A DNA stretch of 39,629 bases from a virus. The translations under genes and the position numbers were made by a program. Every line of letters starts with the position of its first letter. Position 1 is the stretch's first letter. The stretch is taken from positions 1 to 39,629 of the IMG/VR virus record IMGVR_UViG_3300034418_011568. One strand, 5' to 3'. Below, piece after piece: positions 14,854 to 26,459 of this stretch. Under the pieces are notes generated by a model that saw only the letters and a list, made by a program, of their open reading frames with translations, did not search any database and was not told where the DNA came from.

Positions 14854-14988
14854 TTATGTAAACGGTCCTGGGTCTCTACCCGTCGTAACCACCGCAACAG
14901 CCCTCCGGTAAAAAGAACAATCCGTTTTACCGGCCTTCTCGAGAGCGGCCTTTACTTTGGCCCAGTTTTCGCGTGTACGTTCGTCCAT
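14854..14988 (-). CDS. Small hypothetical protein after endolysin (44 aa)
   Basis: ATG shares a base with the endolysin stop (TGATG), so it is coupled to it. The product begins M-D-E-R-T-R-E-N-W-A-K-V and ends D-P-G-P-F-T, with K-T-D-C-S-F-Y-R-R-A-V-A in the middle; I recall similar short proteins in cyanophages. The frame could be read further upstream, but that would lie inside the endolysin. Function unknown. Confidence 0.6.
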   Translation of the reverse strand: MDERTRENWAKVKAALEKAGKTDCSFYRRAVAVVTTGRDPGPFT

Positions 14989-16136
14989 CAGTACGTCCAC
15001 TCCGCAGCAGCTCTTACCCCAGCACCCGGCACAAACCCACCGCCGCCACGACAATCAAGGTGAATAAACCCCCGAGAACGTCCATCGCCTAGTCCACCCG
15101 TCCACCTAACACGAATCCACCGGTAGAAGCTTTCTAGATTGCCGGTAACGGGGTAGAGATCAAAAGCCTCACCGGTTATGTGCTTTGATCCCGAGAAACC
15201 TCCGATTTGGCTATTAACAGGCTCGGGGCGATAGAAGGAGGTGATACCAAGCGGAGCCCCCCACGCCTCCCGCACACGCTGAAACTCTGCCGCAGTACGA
15301 AGCAAGCGAGCCTTTACTGAAGCGGCTGGGCCAGGCACGCGCCGCTTATCCCACTGCAGAATCTCTCCAACACTGAGGTTGGGAGTTACCAGGCAATTGA
15401 AGTCTTCCCAGTCAACCTGAGGCGCCATCGTGAGGCCAGTACCAACAACCTTGCGCCAATGTGGCTCAAACAAGAACCACTTGCCAGCGCCTGAAGCTAG
15501 TTCGACCTGCGTATGAGCGTCTGCAGGAACCTCGGAGTATGCGACGACTGCGTAGGTTTTCCCCTGCGGGCAGTACACCTTCTCTTTTTCCCCAAGCTCG
15601 GAAGATTGAATCGCCTTCTTTTTCAGGAACGTAGGCTGTACAGCTTCTATGCGATACAGGATCAGCTTGGGAGTTGCCTTAACTACTGGCGTTTCGGATT
15701 TTCCCTCCTCCTCCCCTCCGTTGTCCTCAATCAGCTGCAGCAGCTTCTGCGCATACTGCGGGTCTGTGGCGTAACCCTGTTTTACTAACTCGTTAGCAGC
15801 GGCCTCGATAGTCGGAGCGCGATCTACGCCTTCGTATTTATCCCAATCCTTATACCAACGAGTAACCAAGTAGCGGACGCAAGCCCCGAGATTGGGGAAG
15901 TCCATAAAGTCAGCCGAGATCGTTACCCACTTACCATCCACAAATTCTTGAGTCTTACGAGACGCCCCCTGACCCTTAAGTCCGAAGTAGTTGTTCTTTC
16001 CGCTTGTGTGCTTTCCGTAGCCCGACTCAAGCGCCCATTGTGCGGCCACGAGTGTGGACCACTTAGCACCTGCATCTTTAGCGGCTTGTTCGAGGCCTTC
16101 CCAAGTGTTGGGATATTGCCGAGCTCGGGAAGCCAT
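14988..16136 (-). CDS. Two-domain endolysin: glucosaminidase plus M15 peptidase
   Basis: 382 residues. Residues 10-130 form a FlgJ-type glucosaminidase domain with the probable catalytic Glu in A-L-E-S-G-Y-G (about 37) and N-N-Y-F-G-L-K-G after it; this cuts the glycan strand. The linker (about 150-260) looks like an SH3-type or other wall-binding region. Residues 270-375 match peptidase M15: S-F-Y-R-P-E-P-V-N, then zinc ligands in S-K-H (about 319), A-F-D-L-Y (about 327) and F-I-H-L-D (about 359). It would cleave cross-bridging peptides. It lies on the opposite strand to the tail genes, just downstream of a strong terminator. The small gene at 14854-14988 is coupled to it. Confidence 0.85.
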   Translation of the reverse strand: MASRARQYPNTWEGLEQAAKDAGAKWSTLVAAQWALESGYGKHTSGKNNYFGLKGQGASRKTQEFVDGKWVTISADFMDFPNLGACVRYLVTRWYKDWDKYEGVDRAPTIEAAANELVKQGYATDPQYAQKLLQLIEDNGGEEEGKSETPVVKATPKLILYRIEAVQPTFLKKKAIQSSELGEKEKVYCPQGKTYAVVAYSEVPADAHTQVELASGAGKWFLFEPHWRKVVGTGLTMAPQVDWEDFNCLVTPNLSVGEILQWDKRRVPGPAASVKARLLRTAAEFQRVREAWGAPLGITSFYRPEPVNSQIGGFSGSKHITGEAFDLYPVTGNLESFYRWIRVRWTGGLGDGRSRGFIHLDCRGGGGFVPGAGVRAAAEWTY

Positions 16137-16218: not shown

Positions 16219-17034
16219 TCAGACCAATTCCCGATATTCAATAACAGCTACGTTTAGATCATTACTATGCTTTTTAAGCCAATCAATCTCATAATCACAA
16301 ACATCGCACACCCTACCATTGACCAGTTGATGGTGAGTTTTCGGTAGTCGTCCATTTTCTTGCTTGTAGACGCGCTTGACAGCCTTGCCGAATTTAGAAG
16401 CAAGCTTTGTCGCTTCTTGTGGCGAGGCACCTGCAAGTTGCTGGAATGCCTCTTGTAGCGACAGCATTTTGGCTTCTGGAAGGGCAGCAATCGAGCCACC
16501 AGCGGAGCGCGCTGCATTATTGAGCACGATGTCCTTCAGCAGAAGCTGCGCACGGTCGTCAACGCCACCGAGGCGCTCGAGAAGGTCGAGGCTTCTCTCA
16601 ACAGTGTCGAGGACGTTAACGGGCGGTATAGCTACCGGAGTGTCCCGCACTTGGGACACTCCCAGGCGCTCCTTCAAATAAGCGTTGATGCCGACGCGAC
16701 TGAAGGCAAGCAGCACCGCCCGTGCCTGTGGGCTAGGGCTGGCTGCAGTAATGCCGTAGTGCTCGAGGATGAAGGGAGCTGCATCCTCGGGAATCCCACC
16801 AGTCTCACCCCATGTGGATACGGCAGCGGGGTCAAACCCTTGCGCCACAAGGGATCTCGCGCACGGAAGGGCATTCTCGGCAGCGGCTGATTTGAGACTG
16901 CGGCCAAGGGCTGCGTCACTGATACCCGCCATGGCAGCCATGCCACGGATCGAGATGCGGAAGGTGCCGTCGCTCTGAAGCTTGAACTGAGAGGCATCCC
17001 AGTTGCCGGGATGCGCTTGAATGGGGCTGGCCAT
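16219..17034 (-). CDS. Antirepressor-like phage regulatory protein
   Basis: 271 residues. The N-terminal part (F-R-I-S-I-R-G-M-A-A-M-A-G-I-S-D-A-A-L) resembles the DNA-binding start of phage and cyanobacterial proteins that test a target with a winged or helix-turn-helix fold, with A-R-S-L-V-A-Q-G-F-D after it. The centre has A-Q-L-L-L-K-D-I-V-L-N-N-A, and the end has the pattern V-K-R-V-Y-K-Q-E-N-G-R-L-P-K-T-H-H-Q-L-V-N-G, common in BRO/antirepressor-type C-terminal regions. Such proteins inactivate a repressor or act as regulators. Family-level call; partner unknown. An A-rich leader AAGAAAAA precedes the ATG. Confidence 0.55.
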   Translation of the reverse strand: MASPIQAHPGNWDASQFKLQSDGTFRISIRGMAAMAGISDAALGRSLKSAAAENALPCARSLVAQGFDPAAVSTWGETGGIPEDAAPFILEHYGITAASPSPQARAVLLAFSRVGINAYLKERLGVSQVRDTPVAIPPVNVLDTVERSLDLLERLGGVDDRAQLLLKDIVLNNAARSAGGSIAALPEAKMLSLQEAFQQLAGASPQEATKLASKFGKAVKRVYKQENGRLPKTHHQLVNGRVCDVCDYEIDWLKKHSNDLNVAVIEYRELV

Positions 17035-17702: not shown

Positions 17703-19652
17703 CTATTTCGCATCAGCCCAGGTAAGGCCTGAAGAAGCTTCCGCGACAATAGGAACGTGATGACACACAACAGAACCTGCTGCTTCCATAGCTGTAGTTA
17801 GTTTCTGCGCCCATTTATCAGCCTCAGCCTCTCGCACCTCGAGAACGACTTCGTCGTGAACCATAGAGATCAAAAAAGCTTCGCCAGCGGGTGCTTTCCC
17901 GATCTCGGTCCAGATTTTGGCGATAGCGATTTTGGCGATATCCCCTGCGGTGCCTTGGACCTGCGTATTTATCCGTGTGGTGTATTTGTCGTTAAAACCG
18001 ACAAGCTTGCGCTTCCGGCCGTAGCGCGTAAACACTGCGCTCGTGGTCCGGTTGCCTTCCTCTGTCTGCCACTTGTACAGCTGCGGATAAGCTTCTCTAA
18101 AGCCATCCACCAAAACTTTAGCTTCTTCTATCTCCATATCTACACCATATTGCGCAACAGCTTGCTTGCGCAGCGTAAAAGGTCCAGCTCCATATAATAG
18201 CCCAAAATTACAAAGTTTAGCTGAAGTTCTTTCACTCTTAGTAATTGTCTCTGGATCTTTGCCAGTTACCAGTGCAGCAGTCTCTGTGTGCAGATCTCGG
18301 CCCGCACGGTAGGCCTCACGCATGCGTTCCTCACCTGAAAGCTCTGCCGCAACGCGAAGCTCCACCTGCGAGAAGTCAGCCACCACAAGGCAGTAGCCAT
18401 CCCGAGCCCGGAATAACCTACGGAACTCCGCTTCGCGAGGCACTTGCTGAAGATTCGGAGATGCGCAGCTAAGCCTTCCGGTGTCAGTGCCCATCTGCTT
18501 GTAGTTGGCGTGGATCCTTCCGTCCGGGCCGATCGAAGAAAGCAGCTTCTCAATATGAGACACACGAGTCACAGCCGTTTTCCACTCCAAATACATCGCC
18601 ACCAGCTCGTACTGATCCTTGAGGAAGGCCAGTAGGTTCTGATCCAGGCTCGGTAGGCCTTTCTCGCTTGGCGGCAGCAGGATTCCCGCCTGCTCAAACC
18701 TCAACGCCATTTGCTGCGCCGAGCGCGGATTGAACCCTTTAAGCAGCTTTGTGCCTTTGCGTATCGACCCAGAGTCTTTCTCCCGGGTGTTAAGCGACCC
18801 ATCCTCATCTCGCGGCAGCCACATTGAGGGGTCATCTGGGTTTTCGCGCTTGAGCTCGAGGTCGAGTGCTTCCAAAAAAGTCAGCTTCAGTGTCTCGGCA
18901 TGCTCTTGCAGCGATGCGTGCAACGCAGCACCAGCTGCAGCATCAAACCCGAAGCCGTTCCATTGCATGCAAGCGATAGGCCGCAAAGCTTGCATCTCGA
19001 GCAGAAACACGTCGAACAGCGTCACCGAGCTCGATACTTCTGAACCTTTCAGCGAATCAACCAGCGAAGGCACCAACCTCGGGAGGCATACAGCGTCCCG
19101 CGCGGCGTACAGCACCATCTCATCAGAGATATCACCAGCCCATTTGGCCTTCTGCAGCTCCTTAGGCAGCTCTACGCGAAGGATGCGCTGCACGATGCTT
19201 CCGAGGTCGTTCTTATGCCCTGTGCCGTTGTTGACCACCTTGGCGGCGATCATCGTGTCGAAGATGGATCCACCGAGAAGAACGCCCTCTCCCTTCAGGA
19301 AGTTCAAGTCGAAGGCTGCGTTCTGGAGCACTTTGCGCTTGCGCCCCTCTAGCAAAGCCCTTAGCTGCTTCAAACCCGGTGCATGCCAGGGCAGTTGTCG
19401 TTTGCCCTCTGTGCGCCACGCCTCTACATCAACTACCAAGGCGTAGTCGCAAGTTGCGACTTGAATGAGACGCACGCGATTCGCGAGTGGATCAAGTCCT
19501 GTCGTCTCGGTGTCAACGCCGAGTGGCCCCTCAGCTTTTTCGAGCTCGATTACACGCCTGATGAGTAGTTGCGTAGCTTGCGGTCCACGTATGAAGTCGA
19601 AATCAACATTTTCTAAAGCTTTCTGGTGAGCAAGGGTGTCGTTGGAAGGCAT
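17703..19652 (-). CDS. DNA polymerase I (family A) with 3'-5' exonuclease
   Basis: 649 residues. The exonuclease domain has D-T-E-T-T-G-L-D-P (about 47), Q-N-A-A-F-D-L-N-F (about 110) and Y-A-A-R-D-A (about 183). The polymerase domain has T-D-T-G-R-L-S, motif A V-A-D-F-S-Q-V-E-L-R (about 425), the O-helix R-T-S-A-K-L-C-N-F-G-L-L-Y-G (about 480), and motif C V-H-D-E-V-V-L-E (about 600). The residue matching E. coli Phe762 is Phe. The 5'-3' nuclease is absent, as in other phage replicases. It copies the phage genome with the adjacent primase-helicase. The next gene downstream (CyAbrB) follows after 40 bases. Confidence 0.95.
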   Translation of the reverse strand: MPSNDTLAHQKALENVDFDFIRGPQATQLLIRRVIELEKAEGPLGVDTETTGLDPLANRVRLIQVATCDYALVVDVEAWRTEGKRQLPWHAPGLKQLRALLEGRKRKVLQNAAFDLNFLKGEGVLLGGSIFDTMIAAKVVNNGTGHKNDLGSIVQRILRVELPKELQKAKWAGDISDEMVLYAARDAVCLPRLVPSLVDSLKGSEVSSSVTLFDVFLLEMQALRPIACMQWNGFGFDAAAGAALHASLQEHAETLKLTFLEALDLELKRENPDDPSMWLPRDEDGSLNTREKDSGSIRKGTKLLKGFNPRSAQQMALRFEQAGILLPPSEKGLPSLDQNLLAFLKDQYELVAMYLEWKTAVTRVSHIEKLLSSIGPDGRIHANYKQMGTDTGRLSCASPNLQQVPREAEFRRLFRARDGYCLVVADFSQVELRVAAELSGEERMREAYRAGRDLHTETAALVTGKDPETITKSERTSAKLCNFGLLYGAGPFTLRKQAVAQYGVDMEIEEAKVLVDGFREAYPQLYKWQTEEGNRTTSAVFTRYGRKRKLVGFNDKYTTRINTQVQGTAGDIAKIAIAKIWTEIGKAPAGEAFLISMVHDEVVLEVREAEADKWAQKLTTAMEAAGSVVCHHVPIVAEASSGLTWADAK

Positions 19653-19864: not shown

Positions 19865-22633
19865 TCAGCCCCAATCATCGGCTTCCCACTCTCGATAGTC
19901 CTCCGTAGCAGGGGCACTGTCAGGCCTGTCCCTATATACCCCAGGGAAAGTGTCCAAAACCTCGAGCTCGTTCTCCGAAACCGCTGTGCTGGAAAGGGTT
20001 TCAGCCTCGGAGGTTTTGGACACCCCCTTTTCAGTGTCCAAAATGTCCAAAACCTCTGGGCCGTTTTGAGGGGGGTTTTTCCACAGTTTTTCCACAGGCT
20101 CCTGCTGGGTCGCACCGGTCTCAGATGCGACAGGCTCCTCCTGGGTGTTTTCGACCTCGGGAGTTTTGGACACTTGGGGGTTTTGGACATTTTCTGCCTC
20201 ACCCTGTCCAAAACTCAAATCCCTTCCCCCAGAACCGTTCTCGAAGAAAATAGGGGGGTTTTGGACACTCAGAGGCTCGTATATAGAGCGCTTGACAGAA
20301 AAACCTGTGCAAGGGCGTCCCCCTTTCTGTCCCTTCTGTCTCATCTTCGATTCCTCCACGAGGCCGGCCACAACCCACCGCTGCACCCACCGCTTCACGG
20401 TCTTCTCACTGACGATCGTTCCTGGCCCTCTACGCCCCGCTAGGCGGCTGTTAAGGGCGTAGCGAAGATCCTTAGCAGTCATCGGCCCATCAGCCTCCTT
20501 AAGGATCCCGAGAACGAGCGTCCGTGGTGTTTCATCGCCTCTCCCTCCGTTTTCCCTGGTAACGGTTGGTGTGAGGTCTTCGATGCTCAGCGCCTCTTCG
20601 ATGTCCTCCCGCACCAGGAAGCGGTCACCACCCCGCATGCCCCGGCTCTTATCAATTTCGAGGATGAGCGCATGGTCGCCATACTCGGCGCGCTCTTCAT
20701 CTGTCAGATCCTTGAGCTCCCAGGTCTCGTGAACCGCGTTACGCAGGGTGTCTGAGCCACGGAACTTGGATCCGTCCTTGGTGTTGTGGTGGATCCATAG
20801 GAAGGTCGTAGGAGGAAAGGCCGTGCCGTTCTCCCTCGCGAGCCGGTAAAGCGTGTTGGAGTACTCCTTCTCGTACTCCTTAGCGGCGATCATCGTGCTC
20901 ACTGAGGTGAGCGAGTCGACCACCACGAGGACGGGTTTAATCTCCTGCAGCCAACGCAGGAGCACCCTGTACTGGCTCTGCTGCCACTGAGGCTTGAAGC
21001 GGAACCAGCTATCTGCCCCTGTGGAGTCGATGCCCTGCTGGTCGAGATACTCGGCGTAATCGGTCATCGACATGTCATTGCCGATGAAAAGCACGTTGCC
21101 CGAGGTCGTGGGCTGTACAGAGATGCCCCGCACCTTCATGGGCAGCTTCTGGCCAACGATCTTTGCCAGCAGCACCGCCAGGCGGGTTTTACCCATACCG
21201 CCCCGAGCGTGCAGAAGGATCGAGCTCGGCGCAGAAACAAAGTCAGGGATGAGGTAGTCGCGCTGACCGCGAACCTTCTCCTGCCAGTTCGGATCCTCTT
21301 CAACCTGCTCTTGGTGCAGCAAGAAACGCTCGAGAGCGGCTTCAACAGCAGGACCAGACTTATAGACGTGGGTAAGGCCTGAATCACGAACCAGCTCCAT
21401 CAGCTGGTAGTGAGCCAATTCAGCGTTGTCGTAGCCGTTGATGATCTTCTCGGCTGCGGTGAAGAACTCGTGCCCTGAGAGGCGCTTTAAGGGCGCATCC
21501 TTGATGGTGACTTCTGTAGCGGTGGCGCAAGCCGGGTAGTCGTATCCGAGGGCGGTAGCGATCTCCGCGACGTAAGCCTCGAGGTCTGCACCTGTCGGCT
21601 TGCCGGCGTGCATGTCTTCGGTGCGGATCTTGTGCACGAAGCTCAGAACATCACCGCCTACCCCGCAGGCTTTGCAGTCCCAGCAGCCGGTTTCAGTTGC
21701 GTACTGAAAGGTCGTGCCGCTATTACCGCCGTGCCAAGGGCATCCGCTCATGCGCTGCGGCTTATCACCATTCCGCTCTTTCCAGCCGTATTCATCAAAA
21801 ACGGAGTGGCGAAACACGAGCTCATCCAACCGAGGCCGAAGCAGTGCCTGAACCTCTTCCTTGAAGAACCAGCCCCGGATCTGCCGTGGCGGAACGGCGG
21901 TTTGCCCCCCGAGCTCGTCCTTGAGCTCTTTCTGCTGCGCCTCCGAAAGCCACTGGACAGGCTTCCTATGAGGCCGGAGCACATCGAGCACCCAAGCCGG
22001 AGCTGCAGCTACTTGACCCTCGTTGTAGTTGAGGAAGCGATAGGGCTTCTTCGTATCTGGGTGAGGTGAGCCGGGAACAACGCTTTGGCATGCGTTGAAG
22101 CGCAGCACAACCTCTTGGTACTGCTCTCCGGTGATTGCGTCAAAGTCACCACCGGCTCCCCGGTTGGTGTCACCTTGCCCCAAGTGCCAGGAACCATCGT
22201 CAGTGCGAAGAATTAAGGTTTTTACATGCCCTAGCTCTTCCGTCTGATGCTCCGGCACGCGGTAGAGGATTTGACGACGCCCAGGTTTCCCCGAGGTCGT
22301 CGACATGGTGCGTTCTTCACCGAAAGGCTCGTATTCATCACCAGCTACTGCGCGATAGCGAGCGTCTGCCGTTTCGCCATCAATATCCAGAGCGATGAGG
22401 CCACCCGAGAACGAGCCCGTAACCACCCCGAGGCCGACGTAATCGCGCCTCAGCTGGTAGGCCGCCATGCACTCAACTCGTGACAGCGGTTTAGTGGTCC
22501 ATTCTTTGATGTAGGTCTCTTTCCCAGCTACGGGAACAAAGGTCCACTCATCAGGGAAGACACCACGGCGAAGCAGCTCAATAGCTCGTCCTTCTAAAAG
22601 GGCCGAGTTATTGCCTTTGGTTTGTTCGTCCAT
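19865..22633 (-). CDS. Primase-polymerase/helicase fusion
   Basis: 922 residues from ATG 22633 (a TTG 18 bases upstream is possible). The N-terminal prim-pol domain has G-L-I-A-L-D-I-D-G (about 80), the metal-binding D-x-D. A zinc-binding primase segment follows, C-P-W-H-G-G ... C-W-D-C-K-A-C-G (about 300-325). A RepA/DnaB-like ATPase has Walker A G-G-M-G-K-T-R (about 480) and Walker B V-L-V-V-V-D-S-L (about 570). Residues 690-770 look like a winged helix (E-K-T-V-K-R-W-V-Q-R-W). The last 150 residues are low-complexity Pro/Glu/Thr-rich and overlie a cluster of GTTTTGGACA motifs. It primes and unwinds for the polymerase. Confidence 0.9.
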   Translation of the reverse strand: MDEQTKGNNSALLEGRAIELLRRGVFPDEWTFVPVAGKETYIKEWTTKPLSRVECMAAYQLRRDYVGLGVVTGSFSGGLIALDIDGETADARYRAVAGDEYEPFGEERTMSTTSGKPGRRQILYRVPEHQTEELGHVKTLILRTDDGSWHLGQGDTNRGAGGDFDAITGEQYQEVVLRFNACQSVVPGSPHPDTKKPYRFLNYNEGQVAAAPAWVLDVLRPHRKPVQWLSEAQQKELKDELGGQTAVPPRQIRGWFFKEEVQALLRPRLDELVFRHSVFDEYGWKERNGDKPQRMSGCPWHGGNSGTTFQYATETGCWDCKACGVGGDVLSFVHKIRTEDMHAGKPTGADLEAYVAEIATALGYDYPACATATEVTIKDAPLKRLSGHEFFTAAEKIINGYDNAELAHYQLMELVRDSGLTHVYKSGPAVEAALERFLLHQEQVEEDPNWQEKVRGQRDYLIPDFVSAPSSILLHARGGMGKTRLAVLLAKIVGQKLPMKVRGISVQPTTSGNVLFIGNDMSMTDYAEYLDQQGIDSTGADSWFRFKPQWQQSQYRVLLRWLQEIKPVLVVVDSLTSVSTMIAAKEYEKEYSNTLYRLARENGTAFPPTTFLWIHHNTKDGSKFRGSDTLRNAVHETWELKDLTDEERAEYGDHALILEIDKSRGMRGGDRFLVREDIEEALSIEDLTPTVTRENGGRGDETPRTLVLGILKEADGPMTAKDLRYALNSRLAGRRGPGTIVSEKTVKRWVQRWVVAGLVEESKMRQKGQKGGRPCTGFSVKRSIYEPLSVQNPPIFFENGSGGRDLSFGQGEAENVQNPQVSKTPEVENTQEEPVASETGATQQEPVEKLWKNPPQNGPEVLDILDTEKGVSKTSEAETLSSTAVSENELEVLDTFPGVYRDRPDSAPATEDYREWEADDWG
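19951..20268. repeat. Iteron-like cluster of GTTTTGGACA (8 copies)
   Basis: Copies as GTTTTGGACA: 20013-20022, 20163-20172, 20180-20189, 20258-20267. Copies as the complement TGTCCAAAAC: 19951-19960, 20044-20053, 20205-20214, and one with a final T at 20035-20044. Most extend to GTGTCCAAAAC. They lie within the 3' part of the primase gene and are read in different frames, so the DNA rather than the peptide is repeated. Candidate replication origin or protein-binding array. Confidence 0.75.
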
Positions 22634-22663
22634 TAAGGTAGATAGAAGCAAGTGAAGGCCCTC

Positions 22664-25568: not shown

Positions 25569-26459
25569 ATGGCGGATCCCATAAGTCAGTATCTAAATGA
25601 CATCGCGCGTCACCCGATCTTGTCGCGCGAAGCTCAGCTGCGCCACGCTTACCGAATCCGAGCTTGGATCTTTTACGTTCCACCAGGCAGCACTGAGCCC
25701 GATCGAAACGCAGCACCTCCACTGATCGAACGTCGCGGCAGGCGATCACTCGACGTGATGGTTCGCACCAACCTGCGCCTGGTGGTTCACCTAGCCAAGC
25801 GGTATCAGAACCGAGGCCTTGAACTCAACGATCTAATCCAAGAAGGCAGCTTGGGGCTTATCCGCGGAATCGAGCTATTCGATCCCACCCGCGGCTACGC
25901 CCTGAGCACCTACAGCTACTGGTGGATCCGCCAATCAATCTCGAGGGCGATCTACAACTCCTCCCGGACGATCCGCCTACCGGTGAACGTCCAGGACAAT
26001 GCCTCGAAGATCCGCCGAATGATCAGCAACCACACTGCGATCACTGGCCGGCATCCAACACTGGAGGAGATCTCGGAAGCAACCGAGCTCGAACCGTCTC
26101 GGATCACCGACACCCTGCATCAATGCGCTTTCACCGATTGCCGCTCTATGGATGCGCTGTGTCACCTGACTGACAGCTCGATTGCCGATGTGATTTCAGC
26201 CGAAGATCCAACCGAGGCCGAGTCTCCCGAGCTTGCTGCGTTATCTGCTGAACGCGAAGCGAAACTCCAGGAAGCGCTTAGCCGGCTGCCCCCGCGTCAA
26301 CGCCGTCTTGTGTATGCGGTGAACTTCGAGCAGGCAACGTTTCAGCAGGTAGCGAACGAATTTGGTATATCAAGAAGCCGTGTATCTACACTTTATCAAC
26401 GCGCACTGCGTCAACTAAGAGGAAATCTCAACTGCAGCTGGGAAGCTTTTGAGCGTTGA
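25569..26459 (+). CDS. Sigma-70 family RNA polymerase sigma factor
   Basis: 296 residues. D-P-I-S-Q-Y-L-N-D-I near the start matches sigma region 1.2. Region 2 has N-L-R-L-V-V-H-L-A-K-R-Y, D-L-I-Q-E-G-S-L-G-L and F-S/A-L-S-T-Y-S-Y-W-W-I-R-Q-S-I (residues about 75-130); region 3 follows, and region 4 has L-P-P-R-Q-R-R-L-V-Y and V-A-N-E-F-G-I-S-R-S-R-V (about 235-280). It carries all parts needed to bind core polymerase and recognise -10 and -35 elements, and is closest in pattern to cyanobacterial group 2 factors. It probably redirects host RNA polymerase to phage promoters. It closes the replication operon and faces the promoter cluster at 26.6-26.9 kb. Confidence 0.92.
   Translation: MADPISQYLNDIARHPILSREAQLRHAYRIRAWIFYVPPGSTEPDRNAAPPLIERRGRRSLDVMVRTNLRLVVHLAKRYQNRGLELNDLIQEGSLGLIRGIELFDPTRGYALSTYSYWWIRQSISRAIYNSSRTIRLPVNVQDNASKIRRMISNHTAITGRHPTLEEISEATELEPSRITDTLHQCAFTDCRSMDALCHLTDSSIADVISAEDPTEAESPELAALSAEREAKLQEALSRLPPRQRRLVYAVNFEQATFQQVANEFGISRSRVSTLYQRALRQLRGNLNCSWEAFER

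Follow-up and report, generated by a model that had tools for sequence, protein, structure and literature searches.

In a virus of picocyanobacteria, the docking sites of the protein that starts replication appear to lie inside that protein's own gene. In the window analysed here, the 39,629-base virus record IMGVR_UViG_3300034418_011568, the word GTTTTGGACA occurs as seven exact copies and one copy with a single mismatch between positions 19951 and 20267, in both orientations, within the gene of a primase-helicase-initiator protein. We consider it very probable that these iterons are bound by the initiator's own winged-helix (wHTH) domain and that the array is a replication origin lying within the initiator gene. 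The exact copies lie on the plus strand at 20013–20022, 20163–20172, 20180–20189 and 20258–20267 and on the minus strand at 19951–19960, 20044–20053 and 20205–20214; the one-mismatch copy, ATTTTGGACA (20035–20044, minus strand), abuts the iteron at 20044–20053. The first-pass annotation had described eight ten-base copies within 318 bases in both orientations; the clustering and the orientations stand, and the count becomes seven exact plus one near-exact. Chance alone would give about 0.08 exact copies in the entire record, both strands counted, far below the 7 observed in ~318 bases. The genome-wide count that had been suggested earlier as a check, run over all 39,629 bases at 0–1 mismatches, gave copies only at 19951–20267 and 0 further copies outside the array, and the pattern read backwards, as a control, gave 0 matches in the record.

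The gene (19865–22651, minus strand) encodes a PrimPol domain, a CHC2-like zinc ribbon, an AAA_25/RepA-like helicase, a winged helix and a disordered tail. The protein has 928 amino acids counted from a TTG, although the ATG at 22633 is the likelier start. Pfam matches are to Prim-Pol (4e-12), AAA_25 (1.5e-10) and Zn_ribbon_DnaG (1e-4), the nearest structure to the helicase part is RSF1010 RepA (1nlf, Foldseek E 2.7e-10), and Pfam and Foldseek together place the PrimPol domain and a RecA-type helicase in one chain. The helicase, being AAA_25/RepA-like, is not of the SF3 type found in P4-alpha-like initiators, and homology of this PrimPol–AAA_25–wHTH protein to lambda O was not found. The winged helix (20294–20527, minus strand; residues ~709–786) is predicted by AlphaFold to consist of three helices and a two-stranded wing, with a core pLDDT of 85–93, and the full-length model has the same elements; its structural matches, at a generic level, are Fur/PerR, archaeal Orc1 and other solved winged helices. 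Within it lie the recognition helix EKTVKRWVQRWVV (20369–20407, minus strand) and the wing, a beta hairpin with an AT-hook-like KGGRP (20294–20359, minus strand). In the full-length model the folded domains extend to residue ~786 and are followed by a C-terminal tail that is predicted to be disordered (residues ~790–928, pLDDT 24–33; 19868–20284, minus strand). All iterons fall in the stretch that codes for this tail, directly after the winged helix, in keeping with the earlier suggestion that a flexible tail tolerates the motif. The next gene downstream encodes a family A DNA polymerase (17703–19652, minus strand; Pfam DNA_pol_A 2.3e-75).

The array recurs at the same place in relatives that carry the primase gene, which comprise about 85 IMG/VR contigs and several picocyanobacterial genomes (Vulcanococcus, Cyanobium and Synechococcus). 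One motif finder was misled by codon usage in GC-rich relatives, where it returned words such as CCGAGG; we therefore used a second one, which assumes a Markov background. Of 47 non-redundant relatives, 44 have an array at z ≥ 3; two control stretches taken from the same genes gave 1 of 47 and 0 of 47. All close relatives (76–83% protein identity) but one, L029, hold 6–7 exact GTTTTGGACA copies at the same offsets, with none elsewhere in the DNA compared. More distant relatives use other words, in 4–9 copies at the same place and with a layout of alternating orientations. A non-exhaustive list of these words (more exist) gives TTTACGGACA in L029, GGTTTTGCTCA in L032, GGTTTTGGTCA in L033 and L043, TTAACGACA in L041 and L182, GAACGATGGACA in L045 and L078, AGCAATGGACA in L046, L084, L087 and L088, GATGAACGGACA in L062, L068 and L100, GGTTCGGACA in L055 and L057, and ACGAGGGACA and AACGAGCGACA in L095 and L096, respectively, two loci of a single Vulcanococcus limneticus LL genome. 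These two loci have similar wings, and their words differ in the half assigned to the recognition helix. An IMG/VR scan for two opposed iteron copies returned 30 contigs, 27 of which are relatives with the primase. Iteron-bearing elements lacking a primase, such as satellites, were considered for the remaining 3 (L195, L206 and L210) and rejected, as each holds one isolated pair at chance level.

Several lines of evidence bear on what the array does. First, short repeats clustered at one place, in or next to an initiator gene, are the pattern of iteron origins, and the array is the sole one in the genome in the window and in five further contigs of 39–66 kb. The suggestion in the first-pass annotation of a replication origin or phage initiator site remains the best reading of the sequence. 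The main competing explanation accepts that the primase wHTH binds the sites and assigns them a role in controlling copy number, in incompatibility or in autoregulation (the downstream polA operon being one example of a target), with the origin elsewhere. The position of the array between the primase core and polA suits such a role, and bound iterons commonly regulate as well; we nevertheless judge it unlikely, as the genome offers no other array, as the arrays of two relatives, L043 and L094, lie outside the initiator gene yet still adjoin it, and as repeats of this kind serve as origins for architecturally related initiators (SaPI Rep and SCCmec Cch2, PMC7581432; lambda O, PMC3985674). GC skew is monotone along the whole record and gives no indication of an origin.

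Known systems offer parallels to an origin bound by the initiator itself. Lambda O carries four 18–19 bp iterons in the middle of its gene (PMC3985674, PMC3349717, PMC7466680) and so shares with the window the placement of iterons within initiator coding sequence. Unlike the window protein, lambda O has no primase or helicase, and its iterons are longer, mid-gene and beside a 38 bp AT-rich stretch, whereas the sites here are ~10–11 bp, lie in both orientations and follow the DNA-binding domain, in the tail. The clades share no conserved AT-rich unwinding element; in some of them the DNA downstream of the stop codon is AT-richer. SaPI Rep and SCCmec Cch2 read short iterons through a DNA-binding domain at the C-terminus (PMC7581432). 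Their iterons follow the helicase gene directly instead of lying in it, and their helicases run 3′ to 5′; here the array is mostly in the gene, the chain includes a fused PrimPol and its helicase is similar to RSF1010 RepA. P4 alpha and pRN1 ORF904 are single-chain primase-helicases with a C-terminal winged helix (PMC4234260), an arrangement that the window protein shares. They differ in the TOPRIM primase of P4 alpha, in the SF3 helicase of ORF904 and in the origin of pRN1, which consists of a stem-loop past the gene (PMC4234260) rather than an iteron array. The closest helicase fold is that of RSF1010 RepA. RSF1010 has an iteron-directed origin; its RepA, RepB′ and RepC are three separate proteins, whereas here there is one chain with the sites inside its gene. 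The best explanation is that the window protein works like an O protein without being one and is built on a P4-alpha/RSF1010-like single-chain initiator. A literature search on the motif, on DUF3987 proteins with iterons and on origins in primase genes, with most subscription journals outside its coverage, returned no description of this system.

Second, the word covaries with the winged helix of the same protein. Taking the 43 sequences in which the word is clearly anchored, and omitting relatives in which it is not, we compared word distances with protein distances in 12-residue windows by partial Mantel tests controlling for the rest of the protein, using motif strings hand-curated from computed consensuses. 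The recognition helix was the best of ~190 windows for the 3′ half of the motif (partial r 0.63) and the wing the best of ~190 for the 5′ half (partial r 0.51), each with 0 of 500 permutations reaching the value; the sequences are related by descent, which permutations handle only in part. The best values still gave 0 of 500 when words were shuffled within clades only, and the cross terms were −0.13 (wing with 3′ half) and −0.04 (recognition helix with 5′ half). Inside clades the split of the word between wing and helix is less clean: wing–5′, wing–3′, helix–5′ and helix–3′ values were 0.85, 0.35, 0.12 and 0.72 in clade 1 and 0.59, 0.18, 0.47 and 0.47 in clade 2. Individual sequences follow the same division. 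The helix SSKTVKRWLDRW always occurs with GGACA, the 5′ part being ATGAAC if the wing is QRRP and AGCAAT if it is SDKP or ADKP, and the wing KGGRP always occurs with GGTTTT, the 3′ part being GGACA, GGTCA, GCTCA or TGACA and varying with the helix. In leave-one-out prediction with training limited to sequences of <60% core identity, the nearest wing gave the right 5′ half in 31% of cases versus 6% for the nearest core, and the nearest helix the right 3′ half in 62% versus 49%, which supports a link between wHTH and word that extends beyond kinship. Blind prediction of words on held-out relatives worked only with a close wing known. Taken as sequence evidence, the covariation strongly supports binding of the iterons by the primase wHTH, the reading as phage initiator sites that the first-pass annotation had put forward.

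Third, pairs of near-identical phages differ in the wing and the iterons together. L062 and L075 are 96–100% identical over ~11 kb including polA, apart from two stretches, the codons of the wing and the array itself; the linker that joins the wing to the first iteron is identical, so two separated, functionally paired pieces differ. The L075 array is mixed, with some sites unconverted. L013 and L029 are 91–100% identical along the gene and beyond and 58–68% identical from the wing to the last iteron, with the break coming immediately past the recognition helix and identity returning beyond the last iteron. The pair L084/L092 has a similar pattern. These swaps point to matched replacement of a reader and its sites, and they argue against a reader encoded elsewhere in the near-identical DNA. 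They also weigh against the proposal that some other protein of the phage or the host, for instance CyAbrB, a repressor or the small terminase, uses the repeats as operators or for partition or packaging. Short sites that cluster in both orientations would suit a transcription factor or packaging protein too, but we regard this proposal as very improbable given that the word covaries with the primase wing and recognition helix rather than with the rest of the protein, that wing and iterons differ across swap pairs in which ~11 kb including polA is nearly identical, and that a host factor has no need for a new word in each phage lineage. CyAbrB, named earlier as a candidate binder, is unsupported because phages differ in the word in step with their primase wHTH, and other host factors are rejected on the same ground.

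Fourth, the array is conserved as DNA rather than as peptide, as the following comparisons support. On the primase strand the copies use all three frames and read as SVQNP, SFGQG, NVQNP, VSKTP, VLDIL, ILDTE, VSKTS and VLDTF; the peptide readings reported earlier, and the difference in frame between the copies at 20163 and 20180, are correct. In L043 and L094 the reading frame ends earlier, and the whole array, with the same +−+−+− layout, lies beyond the stop codon. In the window's clade, conservation of third codon positions is 93% within the motif, 80% elsewhere in the tail and 77% in the wHTH. Relatives that keep the peptide and lose the motif would have spoken against selection on the DNA; instead, close relatives keep the motif with extra-conserved third positions, which favours such selection, as had been proposed. 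A protein-level repeat or codon-usage artefact, which the low complexity of the tail and the codon-usage-like CCGAGG words of some relatives might suggest, has a negligible probability in view of the unrelated peptides in three frames, the arrays after stop codons and the empty control stretches, the first two of which rule out a peptide repeat as the cause of the array.

If the array is the origin of the phage and the wHTH its reader, a mechanism can be proposed in which one chain joins a PrimPol primase, a zinc ribbon, a hexameric RecA-type helicase and the wHTH. We infer that the wHTH physically binds the iterons and would occupy 6–8 sites. The recognition helix would read the major groove of the GGACA half, and the T-tract half would be read by the AT-hook-like wing. 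Bound wHTHs would gather the protein on both strands, so that the helicase could be loaded and priming could take place on the spot. Loading, priming and origin firing are proposed from the domain content and from known systems, and the function of the array as the phage replication origin would follow by the same analogy.

Similar arrays occur outside this phage group. Among DUF3987-type initiator genes of plasmids, strong in-gene arrays, each with its own words, were found in Planktothrix (13–14 copies), Allocoleopsis (13), Tolypothrix (6–7) and Fremyella; Nostoc is borderline and the Calothrix plasmids are weak, and five other plasmids checked, including the CyRepA1 plasmid of S. elongatus, had no in-gene array. 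The DUF3987/PrimPol in-gene arrays of cyanobacterial plasmids L220, L221, L222, L223 and L226 include TGTAGACAA, CATCCCTAA and GTAGACAAT and are translated as, for example, TVDKTVD and NLGMLGM. In Synechococcus phage S-LBS1 (L217, MG271909.1), the ~380 bases directly after the primase stop codon contain TGCCTAACCT 17 times, in both orientations; the paper on the phage genome makes no mention of repeats. These copies are likely to be the origin of an isolated phage.

A broader proposal, to which we give an even chance, is that the wing and iteron block forms a fast-diversifying replicon-identity cassette. It would bar co-infecting or co-resident relatives from each other's origin and could be re-keyed in one step by a swap; its two-part code, with the helix reading one half-site and the wing the other, would be readable from natural variants, and the design would recur in cyanobacterial plasmids. 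Incompatibility as the driver of word diversity is our working hypothesis. A precedent comes from lambda, where phages with a different replication module (that of P22) escape interference directed at rep-lambda, an origin-linked exclusion (PMC3349717). The natural swaps provide ready tests of a change in initiator specificity and of incompatibility as its driver, and the two loci of Vulcanococcus limneticus LL, with their different words, bear on the same question. For dozens of uncultured phages of picocyanobacteria, sequence alone is enough to propose an origin, its reader and the specificity of the pair. Datasets from which a winged-helix recognition code might be derived are rare, and this set is one; it would also suit vector building in picocyanobacteria.

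Mid-array, the window contains two tandem copies of GTTTTTCCACA (20075–20096, plus strand), also given as TTTTTCCACA, that are kept in the window's clade and resemble DnaA boxes, an assignment that is tentative. TTWTCCACA occurs 16 times in 39.5 kb of tails versus 6 times in 940 kb elsewhere, with few independent cases, and its enrichment is limited to the window's clade and L182. Elsewhere, the window encodes an endolysin in which a glucosaminidase is fused to an M15 peptidase (14988–16136, minus strand), a 271-amino-acid protein beside polA with no Pfam or PHROGs match (16219–17034, minus strand) and a complete phage-encoded sigma-70-type factor (25569–26459, plus strand).
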